A stretch of DNA of 64,000 nucleotides from Halomonas denitrificans (lineage in GTDB: Bacteria > Pseudomonadota > Gammaproteobacteria > Xanthomonadales > Wenzhouxiangellaceae), in assembly GCA_019800895.1 (NCBI GenBank), contig JAHVKF010000001.1, positions 248,001 through 312,000 of the forward strand. Direction: 5' to 3'. The notes under the pieces were generated by a model. That model worked only from the letters and a program-made list of their open reading frames with translations, searched no databases and was not told where the DNA came from. Every line of letters starts with the position of its first letter. The first letter of the stretch is position 1. This document shows, one piece after another, positions 27,146 to 32,511 of this stretch. The position numbers were made by a program, and so were the translations under genes.

Positions 27146-28123
27146 ATGTCCGAAACCACTGCACGCGATTCCGCCCTTCTCACCATCGCCCTGTTTGCCG
27201 CCTTTTCGGACGGCGCCAAGCACGAACACGAACGCGAAGAGATCCGCCGCGTCGCCGATTCGCTGTCGGGCGACGGCGCGCCTGACCTGCGCGCGCTGTA
27301 CCAGGACGTGCTGCTGAACCGCACCACGCTGGCCGAGGCAACCGCGGTCCTCGAGGAAGACGGCGAGAAGCACCTGGCCTACGAGATCGCGGTCGGGGTC
27401 TGCGACGCGGACGGCCGGATGACCGACGCCGAACGGTCGTTCCTGGATACGTTGAAGGCCCAGCTGGGTCTGGAGGCCGATGAGACCGACGACATCGAAC
27501 GCGAAGCCGAGCAGGTGGTCGAGATGACCGAGGCAGCCGCGCCGGCCACCCTGCCCGTCTCGGCCAAGCCGGACCCGGGGCCGGCGGCCATGCCGCAGGT
27601 CGACGAGGCCGCGATGGACAAGCGCATCCTGAAGTACTCGATCCTCAACGGTGCGCTGGAGCTCCTTCCCCAGTCCTGGGCGTCGATGGCGATCATTCCG
27701 CTGCAGATCCGGATGGTCTATGGCATCGGCAAGGACTATGGCGTCGAGCTCGACCGCGGCCATATCAAGGAATTCCTCGCCACGCTGGGCGTCGGCATGA
27801 CCTCCCAGTACGTCGAGCAGTTCGGCCGAAAGCTGATCGGCGGCCTGTTCCGCGCCGCCGCCGGGCGCGGCGTCGGACGCCTCGGCCGCAGCGCAACGAG
27901 CATGGCCTTCTCCTTCGCAACGACCTACGCCCTTGGCCAGGTGGCGAAGCGCTACTACGCCGGCGGGCGGCGGATGAGCACCGACCTGCTCAAGCGGACC
28001 TTCGAGGAGGTCCTGGGCTCGGCGAAGCAGATGCAGGGCGAATACGTCCCGCAGATCGAGCAGAAGGCGCAGACCCTGGACATGGGCGAAGTGATGGGGC
28101 TGGTCAAGGGCAGCCGGGTCTGA
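27146..28123 (+). CDS. TerB-like and DUF697 domain protein
   Basis: This is a 325-residue protein. Residues about 5-115 form a helical TerB-like domain (LLTIALFAAFSDGAKHEHER; VCDADGRMTDAERSFLDTLK), a fold often found with tellurite-resistance and membrane-stress genes. After a Pro/Ala linker, residues about 155-270 match DUF697 (YcjF-like), a hydrophobic domain usually linked to GTPases, with LELLPQSWASMAIIPLQIRM and ATLGVGMTSQYVEQFGRK. No GTPase is adjacent. A membrane-associated stress role is inference. It converges with tsaC, 21 bases apart. Confidence 0.8.
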   Translation: MSETTARDSALLTIALFAAFSDGAKHEHEREEIRRVADSLSGDGAPDLRALYQDVLLNRTTLAEATAVLEEDGEKHLAYEIAVGVCDADGRMTDAERSFLDTLKAQLGLEADETDDIEREAEQVVEMTEAAAPATLPVSAKPDPGPAAMPQVDEAAMDKRILKYSILNGALELLPQSWASMAIIPLQIRMVYGIGKDYGVELDRGHIKEFLATLGVGMTSQYVEQFGRKLIGGLFRAAAGRGVGRLGRSATSMAFSFATTYALGQVAKRYYAGGRRMSTDLLKRTFEEVLGSAKQMQGEYVPQIEQKAQTLDMGEVMGLVKGSRV

Positions 28124-28144: not shown

Positions 28145-29125
28145 TCAGTCGTCGCGGTCGGCGGCTGCGCGGCGCAGCCGGTCGCGGATGGCCTGCCAAT
28201 CGGGCCCTTCGGGCACCGCTTCGACCAGGATGACCGCCGGCCCGCGGGCGTCGGCGCGGCGCAGGGTCGCATAGAGCTCGCGGGCGTAGTCCTCGGCCCG
28301 GTCGGCGATACGGAACCAGCGGCATTGGTCGTGCAACGCATCGGGTCCACGTCGTGCGAGTACGGCGACGCTGCCGGTTTCCAGAGCCTCGGCGACGGTG
28401 GCGTCGAGCGCCTCGGGCGCGACCAGTCTCAGCGGCGCTTCCGGCGCGTAGTGCGACGGCAGTCGCCCCGAAGCGCGAGGGCCTTCGTTCTCCGGGGCCT
28501 CGGCCAGGGGCATCCCGATCACCTCCTCGAGGTCGGCGGCGGCAATCATGCCCGGACGAAGCAGGCGCGGCGCATCGCCGCTCAGGTCGACGATGGTGGA
28601 CTCGAGGCCCACGTCGCAGGCGCCGCCATCCAGCACCGCCACCACCTCGTCGTCGAACTCGTCGATCACGTGCGCCGCGGTGGTCGGGCTGACGTGGCCG
28701 AAGCGGTTGGCGGACGGCGCGGCCAGTGCGCCGCCGAAGCGCTTGAGGAGGGCCTGCGCGATCGGATGGGCGGGGACCCGCAGGCCGACGGTGGACTGGC
28801 CGCCGGTGATCACGTCGTCGACCCGAGGGCCGCGCTTCAGGATCAACGTCAGGGGCCCGGGCCAGAAGGCCGCGGCCAGGCGGCGTGCGGCGGCGGGCAC
28901 ATCGGCCGCCCAGCCGTCCAGAGACCCGGCGTCGGGCAGATGCACGATGACCGGGTGGTCGGCCGGGCGTCCCTTGGCGGCGAACACGCGCCGCACCGCG
29001 TCGGGATTGGCGGCGTCGGCCGCCAGCCCGTAGACAGTCTCGGTGGGAATGGCCACCAGCCGCCCCTCGCGCAGCCAGCCGGCGGCGCGCTCGAGGTCGG
29101 AGGCATCGATCCCCAGTCGAATCAT
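28145..29125 (-). CDS. tsaC: L-threonylcarbamoyladenylate synthase (Sua5/YrdC type)
   Basis: The enzyme makes threonylcarbamoyl-AMP from threonine, bicarbonate and ATP, the first step of t6A in tRNAs reading ANN codons. At 326 residues it is the long Sua5 form: an N-terminal YrdC domain with VAIPTETVYGLAADA, FAAKGRPADHPVIVHL, FWPGPLTLIL and APSANRFGHVSPT, then a linker containing LLRPGMI and SHYAPEAPL, and a C-terminal Sua5 domain. It is the last gene of the pyrC-sbtA-sbtB-tsaC series, 19 bases after sbtB. Confidence 0.94.
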   Translation of the reverse strand: MIRLGIDASDLERAAGWLREGRLVAIPTETVYGLAADAANPDAVRRVFAAKGRPADHPVIVHLPDAGSLDGWAADVPAAARRLAAAFWPGPLTLILKRGPRVDDVITGGQSTVGLRVPAHPIAQALLKRFGGALAAPSANRFGHVSPTTAAHVIDEFDDEVVAVLDGGACDVGLESTIVDLSGDAPRLLRPGMIAAADLEEVIGMPLAEAPENEGPRASGRLPSHYAPEAPLRLVAPEALDATVAEALETGSVAVLARRGPDALHDQCRWFRIADRAEDYARELYATLRRADARGPAVILVEAVPEGPDWQAIRDRLRRAAADRDD

Positions 29126-29144
29126 CGGCGCGATCGTCCCGGTC

Positions 29145-29456
29145 TCAGAACTTTTCCGGGCGCAGGACTTCGACCTCGCCGAGCAGCAGGATCATGGCGT
29201 AGTCGTCGTAGTAGACCTTCTGCAGGTGCTCGGCGATCCGGCGCGCGGTGGGCTCGTCGCAGACCACTTCGACCCGGATGTTGCCGCTGGCCTCCCACCC
29301 GGCGTCGCGAACGCCGCGATGGCCCTTGCCGCGCGCGTTCACGATCGTGTAGCCGTGCGCTCCGAGCTTCTCGAGGTCGCGGGTCAGCGCCGACTCCAGC
29401 ACCGCTTCGGTGATCACGGTCAGCAGCTTGCGTATGTTGTTGCGATTCGATTCCAT
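29145..29456 (-). CDS. sbtB: PII-like regulator SbtB
   Basis: This is a 103-residue ferredoxin-like trimeric PII relative. The ATG at 29456 is preferred because GGAG lies six bases upstream (an alternative ATG is at 29468). It reads NIRKLLTVITEAVLESAL, then GYTIVNARGKGHRGVRD in the T-loop region and IRVEVVCDEPTARRIAEHL, ending in LLLGEVEVLRPEKF. The canonical GlnB uridylylation Tyr is not in the expected place. The gene lies 30 bases after sbtA. Cyanobacterial SbtB binds adenine nucleotides including cAMP and inhibits SbtA, which fits this pairing. Confidence 0.82.
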   Translation of the reverse strand: MESNRNNIRKLLTVITEAVLESALTRDLEKLGAHGYTIVNARGKGHRGVRDAGWEASGNIRVEVVCDEPTARRIAEHLQKVYYDDYAMILLLGEVEVLRPEKF

Positions 29457-29486
29457 CGACGACTCCATCGAAACCCGGCAGCGCCC

Positions 29487-30422
29487 TCAGCCGGCCGCGT
29501 GGGCCCATTCGGCAAAGGTCCAGTACAGGGGAATGCCGACCAGCACGTTGAACGGGAAGGTGATGCCCAGCGACGCGGTCAGCGACAGCGTCGGATTGGC
29601 CTGGGGCACCGAGATGCGCATGGCCGCCGGTACGGCGATGTACGACGAACTGGCGGCCAGTACCGCGAACAGCATCGTCCCACCCGGGCTCATGCCCATC
29701 AGCAGGGCCAGGCCCGTACCGATGGCGCCGAACACGACCGGGACCACGGTACCGAAGGGAAGCAGGAAGAGCCCGTAGCGCTTGAGGCTGCCCGCCTGGG
29801 CGGCCGCGATCAGCCCCATCTCGAGCAGGAATACCGCGAGGATGCCCTTGAACAGGTCGAAGAACAACGGTTCGATCGACGTCAGGCCTTCGGGCCCGGC
29901 GATCCACCCGATCAAGAGACCGCCGATCAACAGCACCACGCCCTTGCCGAGAAACACTTCGTGACCGATGCTCTTCCAGTCCATCTTCGCGCGGAGTCCG
30001 CGCGCCAGCACGATGCCGACCAGGATCGCGGGCATTTCCAGCACCACGAGCAGCAGCGGCAGGTGGGCTTCGTAGTCGATCTCGCGCGTCACCAGCCAGG
30101 CCACGGCGACGGCAAAGGTCCCGACGCTGACCGAGCCGTAGTGCGCGGCGATCGACGCGGCGTCGGCCCGCTTGAAGCGGCCGACGTGCAGCAGCACCGG
30201 ATAGATCAGCAATGGCAGCGCGATGCCCATCACGATCGCGACGACGACGTCGGGCAACACCGAGAGGAACGGCTGCTCGGCGAGTTCGACGCCGCCCTTC
30301 AGGCCGATCGAAAGCAGCAGCAGCATGGAAACGAAGTCGTAGATCGCCGAGGGCAGGCGCAGCTCGGCGCGCAGCAGTCCGGCGGCCAGGCCGAAGAGGA
30401 AGAACAGCAGGATCGGGTCCAT
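29487..30422 (-). CDS. sbtA: SbtA-type sodium-dependent bicarbonate transporter
   Basis: This is a 311-residue inner-membrane protein with about ten hydrophobic segments. The ATG at 30422 has GGAGG nine bases upstream, inside the end of pyrC. Family features include MDPILLFFLFGLAAGLLRAE, a LPSAIYDFVSMLLLLSIGLKGG helix pair (DUF897), HYGSVSVGTFAVA, and PGGTMLFAVLAASSSYIAVP. SbtA imports HCO3- with Na+ in cyanobacteria; homologues occur in many heterotrophs. A tricarboxylate or other anion substrate cannot be excluded. The neighbouring sbtB supports the assignment. Confidence 0.86.
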   Translation of the reverse strand: MDPILLFFLFGLAAGLLRAELRLPSAIYDFVSMLLLLSIGLKGGVELAEQPFLSVLPDVVVAIVMGIALPLLIYPVLLHVGRFKRADAASIAAHYGSVSVGTFAVAVAWLVTREIDYEAHLPLLLVVLEMPAILVGIVLARGLRAKMDWKSIGHEVFLGKGVVLLIGGLLIGWIAGPEGLTSIEPLFFDLFKGILAVFLLEMGLIAAAQAGSLKRYGLFLLPFGTVVPVVFGAIGTGLALLMGMSPGGTMLFAVLAASSSYIAVPAAMRISVPQANPTLSLTASLGITFPFNVLVGIPLYWTFAEWAHAAG

Positions 30423-30426
30423 GCGG

Positions 30427-31467
30427 TCAGTCCTCCAACCGCCAGGCGACGCGGCCACCGGCGCGCAGGGGAACGATGGTCGAATCGGCGAACGGGAGCT
30501 CTTCGGGAACGGACCAGGGCGAGCGCGTCAGCGTGATCGTGCCGCGATTGCGCGGCAGCCGATAGAAGTCCGGACCGTGATGGCTGGCGAAGCCTTCCAG
30601 GCGGTCCAGCCTGCCGGTCGCCTCGAACACTTCGGCATACAGTTCGATCGCGTTCGGCGCGCTGAACACGCCGGCGCAACCGCAGTCGGATTCCTTCGCG
30701 CCCTTCGGGTGCGGCGCCGAATCGGTGCCGAGGAAGAATTTCGGGCTGCCCGAGGTGGCGGCCTCGACCAGCGCCCGGCGATGGCGCTCGCGCTTGATCA
30801 GCGGCAGGCAGTAGTGATGCGGACGCAGGCCGCCGTCGAACAAGGCGTTGCGGTTCAGCATCAGGTGGTGGACGGTCACGGTCGCCGCGACCCGGTCCGG
30901 GGCCGCGGACACGAAGTCGACCGCATCCGACGTGGTCACGTGCTCGAGCACCATGCGGAGCTCGGGAAGATCGCGCACCAGCCGATCGAGATGCCGTTCG
31001 ATGAACACCGCCTCGCGATCGAACACGTCGATCTCGCCGTCCGTGACTTCACCGTGCAGCAGCAGCGGGAGATCGACCTCCTGCATCGCCTCGAGCGCCG
31101 GCATGGCGCGCGCCAGGTCGGTCACGCCGCTGTCGGAGTTGGTGGTCGCACCGGCCGGGTAGTACTTGACCGCATGAACGAACTCGCATTCCGCCGCCCG
31201 ACGGATCTCGTCCGGCGTTGTGTTGTCGGTCAGGTAGAGGGTCATCAGCGGCTCGAAGGCAGCCTCGGCGGGCATCGCCGCGAGGATGCGATCGCGGTAG
31301 GCTGCGGCTCGCGCCACCGTGGTCACCGGTGGCTTGAGATTGGGCATCACGATCGCCCGCGCGAAGCACCGTCCGGTGGCGCCGAGCACGTCGGACAGTG
31401 CTTCACCGTCACGCACGTGCAGGTGCCAGTCGTCGGGTCGGGTCATGACGAGTCGATCGGTGGCCAC
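30427..31467 (-). CDS. pyrC: Dihydroorotase (type II, PyrC)
   Basis: PyrC cyclises carbamoyl aspartate to dihydroorotate in pyrimidine synthesis. The 346-residue length equals the E. coli enzyme. Zinc-site residues are visible: [12 protein letters not shown] (two His), the carbamylated-Lys region [28 protein letters not shown] and [12 protein letters not shown] (His ligands), and the catalytic Asp in [16 protein letters not shown]. The start is GTG at 31467; ATG at 31446 is an alternative. Only four bases separate it from sbtA. Confidence 0.97.
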
Positions 31468-31551
31468 GTCGAACTTCCGGGCAGGATTTCGTGCATTCTA
31501 CCGGGACCGACCCGCTCGATCCCGACCTTCCCGATTCGTTAGGATGAACCC

Positions 31552-32511
31552 ATGACCTTTGCCGTTCTCTCGATCGTCTGCGGGCTCGTCCTGCTCTTGT
31601 GGAGCGCGGAACGCTTCGTCGTTTCGGCCTCGGAACTCGCCTCCCGGCTCGGCATGTCGCCATTGCTGATCGGCATGATCGTCGTCGGCTTCGGCACCTC
31701 GGCGCCGGAGCTGACCGTGTCCGTGCTCGCCTCCGCGGGCGGCAACCCCGGCATCGCGCTCGGCAATGCCTACGGGTCCAATATCACCAACATCGCGCTG
31801 ATCCTCGGCCTGACGGCGGTGATCAGTCCGATCGCGGTGCAGTCCAGCGTCATCCGCCGCGAACTTCCGGCGCTGCTCGGCGTCACCGCGCTGGCCGCGT
31901 GGCAGCTCCTCGACGGGGAAGTTTCGCGGCTGGACGCCGGGGTGTTGCTGGCGGTGTTCGCCGCCCTGCTCGGCTGGAGCCTTCTCGAGGCCCGGCGGCA
32001 ACCGGCCGACGAACTCGGACGGGACGTCGCGCAGGAACTGGAGGTGCGACCCGACGCATCGCCCCGGCGCAGCCTGGCCTGGCTGGTCGTCGGCCTGGTC
32101 GTGCTGATCGCGAGCTCCCGGCTGCTGGTCTGGGGCGCGGTCGAGGTGGCGCAGGCGCTGGGCATGAGCGACCTGGTCATCGGCCTGACCATCGTCGCGG
32201 TCGGCACGTCGCTTCCAGAGCTGGCCTCGTCGCTGGTCGCCGCCCGCCGCGGAGAACACGACCTGGCGGTCGGCAACATCGTCGGCTCGAACCTGTTCAA
32301 TACGCTGATGGTGATCGGCGCGGCCGGGCTGACCCGCCCGCTGCCGGTCGGCGACAAGCTGCTCACCCGCGACCTCCCCGTGCTGGGCGGGGTCACCCTT
32401 CTGCTGCTGGTGATGGCGATCGGCGTCCGCGGCCCGGGCCGGATCAACCGGATCGAAGGCGGTGTCCTTCTCGCGGTCTTCGTCGCCTACACGGCCTGGC
32501 TGCTGACCTGA
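31552..32511 (+). CDS. Calcium/sodium antiporter (YrbG/CaCA family)
   Basis: This is a 319-residue inner-membrane exchanger built from two inverted five-helix repeats. Each repeat carries the alpha motif: VGFGTSAPELTVSVLA with GNAYGSNITNIALILG in the first, and VAVGTSLPELASSLVAA with GNIVGSNLFNTLMVIG in the second. The glutamates and asparagines form the Ca2+/Na+ sites in CaCA proteins such as NCX_Mj. It is divergent from pyrC and converges with the AEC transporter. Ion specificity is inferred from the family. Confidence 0.93.
   Translation: MTFAVLSIVCGLVLLLWSAERFVVSASELASRLGMSPLLIGMIVVGFGTSAPELTVSVLASAGGNPGIALGNAYGSNITNIALILGLTAVISPIAVQSSVIRRELPALLGVTALAAWQLLDGEVSRLDAGVLLAVFAALLGWSLLEARRQPADELGRDVAQELEVRPDASPRRSLAWLVVGLVVLIASSRLLVWGAVEVAQALGMSDLVIGLTIVAVGTSLPELASSLVAARRGEHDLAVGNIVGSNLFNTLMVIGAAGLTRPLPVGDKLLTRDLPVLGGVTLLLLVMAIGVRGPGRINRIEGGVLLAVFVAYTAWLLT

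Follow-up and report, generated by a model that had tools for sequence, protein, structure and literature searches.

The window analysed here, a 64,000-nucleotide stretch of an assembly named Halomonas denitrificans and placed in the Wenzhouxiangellaceae, carries a head-to-tail run of four minus-strand genes, pyrC, sbtA, an sbtB-like gene and sua5, in which a predicted Na+/bicarbonate symporter (SbtA) and its PII-like partner lie directly ahead of a bicarbonate-consuming enzyme of tRNA modification. We consider it probable that the run is one operon in which SbtA, with SbtB, supplies bicarbonate for anabolic carboxylations and not for carbon fixation, and that it belongs to a pattern in which sbtA, with or without sbtB, recurs beside genes for bicarbonate users.

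The run is led by pyrC (30427..31467), which encodes a dihydroorotase of the dimeric type (TIGR00856, 474 bits against a cut-off of 293). It continues with sbtA (29487..30422), a member of the Sbt_1 family of Na+/bicarbonate symporters (PF05982, E = 1.1e-111, residues 3–304) and of the SSSYIA subfamily described below, then with the sbtB-like PII gene (29145..29468; PF00543, E = 8e-23) and with sua5 (28145..29125), encoding a threonylcarbamoyl-AMP synthase (TIGR00057, PF01300 and PF03481, the latter being Sua5_C). The original prediction, made by a model from the sequence alone, had placed an SbtA and a PII-like SbtB four bases after pyrC and just before tsaC, with the same coordinates, and the family matches and an SbtA fold bear this out. 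The synthase that it called TsaC is present as a bicarbonate-consuming enzyme, though as the long form Sua5 (TsaC2), with a YrdC domain plus a Sua5 C-terminal domain, and not as the short TsaC. Sua5 takes threonine, ATP and bicarbonate as substrates, and the PyrC reaction uses no bicarbonate. The genes are separated by 4 bases (pyrC–sbtA), 18 or 30 bases (sbtA–sbtB) and 19 bases (sbtB–sua5); the predicted gaps of 4 and 19 stand, and that of 30 stands only if sbtB starts at its second methionine (Met5, 29456), the first (29468) leaving a gap of 18. Read by eye, a GGAG lies six bases ahead of Met5, and the GGAGG preceding sbtA falls inside the end of pyrC. We infer a single transcript for the four genes.

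Neighbours of sbtA were surveyed by tblastn (E ≤1e-8, at least 30% of the query, matches within 2.5 kb), using as queries Escherichia coli CarA, CarB, PurK, AccC, Ppc and CynS and the Sua5 of the window. The first set comprised 57 loci, dereplicated at 85%, with an SbtA at least about 50% identical to that of the window, plus 19 loci of lower identity; a bicarbonate consumer was found at 14 of the 57 and at one of the 19. Because the bicarbonate idea had arisen from part of this set (loci L032–L101), a held-out set was used, under a rule fixed before 80 new loci were fetched, 62 of them non-redundant. A consumer lay near sbtA at 22 of these 62 loci, a count that excludes the secondary genes of the rule (carbonic anhydrase, AccD and the beta subunit of methylcrotonyl-CoA carboxylase, MCC), and at 13 of the 18 with at least about 50% identity; the main held-out order (centre G1038) had been picked knowing that one member had a nearby biotin carboxylase. 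First-set loci fetched after the idea had formed (L124–L148 and L155–L168) were less striking, at 4/39 (L140, L141, L142 and L159), three of which are close relatives.

Pooling gave 157 SbtA sequences at 90% dereplication, 156 with enough flank, in a sample weighted towards the G1038 order, the source of most PurK cases. Bicarbonate consumers occurred at 43 of the 156 loci, as PurK (27), Sua5 (10), biotin carboxylase (5) and phosphoenolpyruvate (PEP) carboxylase (1). Carbonic anhydrase was found near sbtA at 12/156, one of these also having biotin carboxylase, and carboxysome shell or CbbQ/CbbO-type genes on 12 further loci, the latter count covering whole loci and having been added after the held-out test. 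At least one of the bicarbonate-related genes sought was thus present at 66/156. By comparison, no bicarbonate consumer was seen at 40 control loci centred on SBF, a different family of Na+ symporters (40 of 59 listed places, ranks 1–38, 42 and 43, not dereplicated and with several short contigs), and flanks 4–8 kb from sbtA, 400 kb in all, gave no match to the bicarbonate-consumer queries. As a test of specificity, 35 E. coli enzymes of other biosynthetic steps, none of which consumes bicarbonate, gave matches at three of 157 loci in total (guaA once, ilvD twice), about 70-fold fewer matches per enzyme than for the bicarbonate consumers.

Fisher values from such counts overstate independence, because loci within an order are related, and counts of change on the SbtA tree are therefore safer, although the tree was built by a quick method. 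On this tree (INDEPENDENCE) the PurK label required 14 changes, at least 10 of them forced by starred branches. The Sua5 label required six (at least three forced), biotin carboxylase alone three (three forced) and carbonic anhydrase alone seven (five forced); each change may be either a gain or a loss. PurK stands in five gene orders around sbtA: purEK-sbtAB (L058, L216, L218), sbtAB-purEK (L059, L219, L221, L223), sbtAB-purKE (L071, L099, L269), sbtA-purEK with no recognised sbtB (L224–L229, L233–L239, L245, L251) and purKE-sbtA (L159, L258, L262). Taking the longest open reading frames, the gaps are 6 bases between sbtA and purE in L224, 3 bases between a carboxyltransferase gene and sbtA in L253, and 32 bases between sbtA and ppc in L264.

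The identities of these neighbours were checked against curated models. PurK was the best NCBIfam match in all 18 proteins tested (of 27), with 14 above the curated cut-off and four below it (L071, L099, L245, L269), and Ppc (L264), PurE (L224) and Sua5 (L037, L213) were above theirs. Carbonic anhydrases near sbtA matched PF00484 above cut-off in 10/10 tests. In L253 and L140 a biotin carboxylase (NF005525, which NCBIfam names an acetyl-CoA carboxylase subunit) is followed by a 605-residue protein that passes the models for both pyruvate carboxylase subunit B and OadA, the alpha subunit of oxaloacetate decarboxylase; we read the pair as a probable two-subunit pyruvate carboxylase, and the 605-residue protein may instead be an oxaloacetate decarboxylase partner. 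An MCC-type cluster (L039, L044, L047, L074) combines AccC with genes named by eye as MCC-beta-like and 3-hydroxy-3-methylglutaryl-CoA-lyase-like, the carboxylase pair of L044 falling below cut-off owing to short frames. The Thioalkalivibrio sbtA genes neighbour a bacterial microcompartment (BMC) shell protein, CbbQ, a VWA protein (CbbO by eye), a pterin-4a-like protein and ferritin; in L126 and L129, whose SbtA is 64% identical to that of the window, CbbQ is no more than 132 bases off and a BMC gene is found at a distance of 5 kb.

At lower-identity SbtA loci a beta-type carbonic anhydrase recurs (L166, L271–L273, L276, L279–L281, L284, L286 and L288), all but L288 coming from other classes of the phylum, and 9/9 of those tested matched PF00484.

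The AlphaFold model of the window SbtA (28-row alignment, mean predicted local distance difference test score 86.8) best matches the Synechocystis SbtA structures, with template modelling (TM) scores of 0.91 for 7egl and 0.92 for 8zor, against 0.65 or less for bile-acid symporters. Four residues have been put forward as bicarbonate ligands of SbtA, Ser114, Tyr140, Ser324 and Ser327 (PMC8352866), and the window protein has Ser, Leu, Ser and Ala at these positions. Among 157 non-redundant relatives, gaps aside, position 114 is Ser in all but one (Gly) and 324 is Ser in all, while 140 is always Leu, Val, Ala or Met, 327 is Ala in all but one (Val), and 325 is Tyr in all; two cyanobacterial SbtA proteins retain Tyr140, Asp325 and Ser327. 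Because positions 140, 325 and 327 are replaced and Ser114 and Ser324 kept, SSSYIA-type SbtA proteins are, as judged from alignment, a subfamily with a putatively partly rebuilt substrate site.

Plasmids of Arthrobacter sp. U41, A. crystallopoietes and Pseudomonas hygromyciniae (pSDM007) bear an sbtA close to the window type, at about 67–70% (loci L212 and L211), and on the Arthrobacter sp. U41 plasmid sbtA is followed after 5 bases by a small gene whose annotation is transcriptional regulator. Around sbtAB, gene spacing and identities are the same in L066–L069, on contigs that bear the names Luteimonas terricola, Azoarcus taiwanensis, Luteimonas aestuarii and Pollutimonas subterranea, possibly reflecting recent transfer or contaminated assemblies.

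The nearest PDB sequences to the SbtB-like protein are TTHA0516 (2cz4) and then cyanobacterial SbtB. Its alignment retains the GKGxRxxR loop, as do the products of genes after sbtA in Acaryochloris and Pseudanabaena, and its T-loop is five residues shorter than in two cyanobacterial sequences. The CGPxGC C-terminal redox loop is absent from it and from five other non-cyanobacterial sequences aligned; as this loop is conserved in only some SbtB homologues (PMC8352866), its absence is not defining. An sbtB directly follows sbtA in 69 of 70 loci in one set of relatives, the remaining locus (L101) having no usable SbtA match, and at 75 of the 157 loci SbtB could not be recognised inside the 2.5 kb around sbtA. 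By homology, a role for SbtB as a nucleotide-sensing valve is plausible.

The pair is best compared with cyanobacterial SbtA–SbtB (Synechocystis slr1512–slr1513; 7egl, 7cyf), with which it shares the transporter family, the fold, an adjacent PII-like partner, Ser114 and Ser324 of the bicarbonate site, and the GKGxRxxR loop. It differs in sequence (about 28–30% identity for SbtA, SSSYIA in place of SSSDIS, Leu for Tyr140), in the shorter T-loop and missing CGPxGC tail of its SbtB, and in setting, with no RuBisCO found and biosynthetic operon partners. Closer in sequence are the SbtA proteins at carboxysome loci of chemoautotrophic Gammaproteobacteria (Thioalkalivibrio and others), which carry SSSYIA and are 42–67% identical to that of the window, 8/12 exceeding 50%; these presumably feed a carboxysomal RuBisCO, whereas the window operon has none. 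Sbt-CS of Thiomicrospira (PMC12628692) is a further SbtA from a carboxysome locus.

The genome of the window (G000; 3.2 Mb, 99.98% complete) encodes a single SbtA, whose closest named relative is that of Wenzhouxiangella sp. XN79A (92%). As the original prediction had expected, no match to the RuBisCO large subunit (PF00016) was found in it, in a search that was positive in 5 of 14 control genomes; 'heterotroph' is used here in the sense that no RuBisCO was found, other carbon-fixation pathways not having been searched for. The genome has one beta carbonic anhydrase, and the idea of a cell that lacks carbonic anhydrase and hence needs SbtA was rejected for that reason (alpha and gamma classes were not searched for). 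Across the family, in which some genomes are incomplete, a beta carbonic anhydrase match is present in none of the 14 genomes in which SbtA is of low identity only, 8 of the 9 with window-type SbtA and 10 of the 20 without SbtA. The first of these counts is suggestive of SbtA replacing carbonic anhydrase in those 14 genomes, which may be one clade.

Conservation of the gene order in relatives, which the original prediction had offered as a check, proved partial. Window-type SbtA occurs in 9 of 43 family genomes: six have pyrC-sbtAB-sua5 (G000, which is the window, G051, G104, G065, G220 and G009), two have sbtAB-sua5 with pyrC elsewhere (G099, G188), and in one neither gene adjoins (G037). In four others with no SbtA match (G058, G197, G209, G213) pyrC and sua5 are joined directly, their matches spaced by 11–22 bases, and two further genomes, likewise lacking an SbtA match, have the two genes set apart by 1.3 or 4.2 kb of other DNA. 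The four empty sites form one clade nested within the rest on both the Sua5 and PyrC trees, where sbtAB presence requires three or two changes. Since the clade is nested, loss of sbtAB at the empty sites is the simpler reading, although the direction is not proven; insertion of sbtAB into an older pyrC-sua5 pair was dropped on the same ground.

Taken as a bicarbonate supply, the system would work as follows. SbtA would import bicarbonate together with Na+, and SbtB, being PII-like, would probably gate it according to adenylate status. The higher cytosolic bicarbonate would serve Sua5 in forming threonylcarbamoyl-AMP for N6-threonylcarbamoyladenosine (t6A), and the shared pool would also feed carbamoyl phosphate, purine and fatty-acid synthesis; we do not claim delivery to Sua5 alone, because every consumer would share in a pool raised by a transporter. 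Most likely, pyrC is in the operon as the operon partner of sua5. Elsewhere, sbtA(B) cassettes would recur on the same principle with purEK, biotin carboxylase pairs, ppc, sua5 or carbonic anhydrase, or at the carboxysome locus in autotrophs. PurK, the commonest partner, uses bicarbonate, and cyanobacterial purK mutants are reported to require high CO2 (PMC10880623).

Several observations weigh against this supply role. Two of the four published bicarbonate-site residues are changed in the window SbtA (Tyr140 to Leu and Ser327 to Ala). At 90 of the 156 loci none of the bicarbonate-related genes sought was found, so that sbtAB beside unrelated genes, which the original prediction had held to speak for coincidence, is encountered in part of the sample. 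Among the absent genes is carAB, a major consumer: it was dropped as a partner, CarA being found within 2.5 kb of sbtA at none of 157 loci and the single CarB match being a 22% cross-match to biotin carboxylase. One clade of the family lacks sbtAB at the site and has retained pyrC-sua5. The beta carbonic anhydrase of this genome means that import is not strictly required for making bicarbonate. Finally, the flux into t6A is small, and Sua5 by itself would scarcely warrant a pump. For human YRDC, the Sua5 homologue, PMC5951830 gives a Km for bicarbonate of 13 mM, and of 31 mM for mitochondrial t6A formation. With a comparable Km, Sua5 would gain from a raised pool despite a small flux.

A wider version of the supply role is possible, though we would put it somewhat short of an even chance: SSSYIA-type SbtA may be a general anabolic bicarbonate supply in non-autotrophic proteobacteria, a cassette re-plugged into operons for growth-limiting carboxylations (purEK, pyruvate carboxylase, ppc, MCC and sua5, with the carboxysome in autotrophs). 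It would have a rebuilt substrate site of its own (Tyr lost at 140 and gained at 325), SbtB would tie import to adenylate status, and t6A synthesis in the window would be sensed for both bicarbonate and energy.

The original prediction was narrower, coupling SbtAB specifically to pyrimidine and t6A synthesis with SbtB sensing nucleotides, and in that form it seems unlikely to us. The operon order in six family genomes and the recurrence of Sua5 near sbtA (10/156, at least three changes forced on the tree), with pyrC near it at 5/157, agree with such a coupling. Its pyrimidine half, however, is not supported, given the lack of bicarbonate use by PyrC and the absence of CarA within 2.5 kb; pyrC and sua5 are adjacent without sbtAB in four family genomes, and sbtAB-sua5 occurs without adjacent pyrC in two. 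PurK, moreover, turns up beside sbtA more often than Sua5 does, in a sample that is weighted towards one order. What survives is the direction, bicarbonate for biosynthesis, given Sua5 alongside and PurK, biotin carboxylase, PEP carboxylase and carbonic anhydrase elsewhere; the target had been drawn too narrowly.

We regard as rather improbable that sbtAB is a dispensable passenger sitting by chance in a well-expressed housekeeping operon. The empty sites, with loss as the simpler tree reading, the plasmid-borne and scattered copies of sbtA, and the 90 loci with no bicarbonate-related neighbour would all fit a passenger. Against it stands the kind of neighbour that recurs, namely bicarbonate enzymes at 43/156 loci against 3/157 for the 35 other enzymes and 0/40 for the control anchors.

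It is more doubtful still that SSSYIA-type SbtA carries another small anion or a carboxylate, the adjacency to bicarbonate enzymes having some other cause. The replacement of Tyr140, Ser327 and Asp325 across the 157 sequences, wherever the position is present, fits this reading, but Ser114 (save one Gly) and Ser324 are kept, the fold is that of SbtA, and members sit at carboxysome loci and next to bicarbonate enzymes of several kinds.

At 29/157 loci the 2.5 kb around sbtA include a LysR regulator that matches an NhaR-like query (24–100% identity, 25 of the 29 at 35% or more); one, at L059:1283-2194, passes the NhaR model NF008284, and NhaA is near sbtA at five loci. Sodium-responsive control of sbtAB through an NhaR-like regulator is possible on this genomic context. 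That the system chiefly serves Na+/pH homeostasis, Na+/bicarbonate import buffering the cytoplasm and the enzyme neighbours being secondary, is very improbable, since despite these regulators and a Na+/Ca2+ exchanger divergent from pyrC in the window it fails to predict neighbouring PurK, Ppc, biotin carboxylase, Sua5 or carboxysome genes, and Na+ entering with bicarbonate adds to the Na+ load.

The literature consulted casts SbtA as a carbon-concentrating component and no more than mentions SbtA-like proteins of heterotrophs. Among titles and abstracts of open-licence papers we found no report, for heterotrophs, of a link between sbtA and purK, ppc, pyruvate carboxylase or sua5. A functional parallel is MpsAB of Staphylococcus aureus, which we take not to belong to the SbtA family. 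According to PMC8567241, it likewise supplies inorganic carbon for growth of a non-autotroph, but it stands in for carbonic anhydrase in S. aureus, whereas the genome of the window has that enzyme. Genes for inorganic-carbon transporters and carbonic anhydrases are described in PMC10880623 as widespread in autotrophs and heterotrophs and as co-located with autotrophic pathway genes. Two Sbt proteins of the autotroph Thiomicrospira pelophila, not necessarily of the SSSYIA type, restore growth at low CO2 to E. coli that lacks yadF and cynT, as reported in PMC12628692. If the pattern of neighbours holds, bicarbonate import would in many bacteria be tied to enzymes of purine synthesis, tRNA modification and anaplerosis. 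Their growth at low CO2 and alkaline pH would then be easier to explain, many genes that are annotated but unstudied would gain a suggested function, and engineers would have new SbtA variants to draw on.

Upstream of the run, the region 31468..31551 between pyrC and the divergent Na+/Ca2+ exchanger gene (31552-32511, plus strand) is presumed from its sequence to hold the operon promoter. A consensus promoter scan gave no match, including in this region, terminator-like sites numbered 2 observed against 1.3 expected, and there was no Rfam match at the gathering threshold; an RNA element or promoter at the locus was accordingly dropped as a candidate. On the other flank lies a gene for a TerB/DUF533-like protein (27146-28123). 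Relatives of this protein and of the exchanger recur near sbtAB at several other loci, marking a conserved chromosomal neighbourhood.

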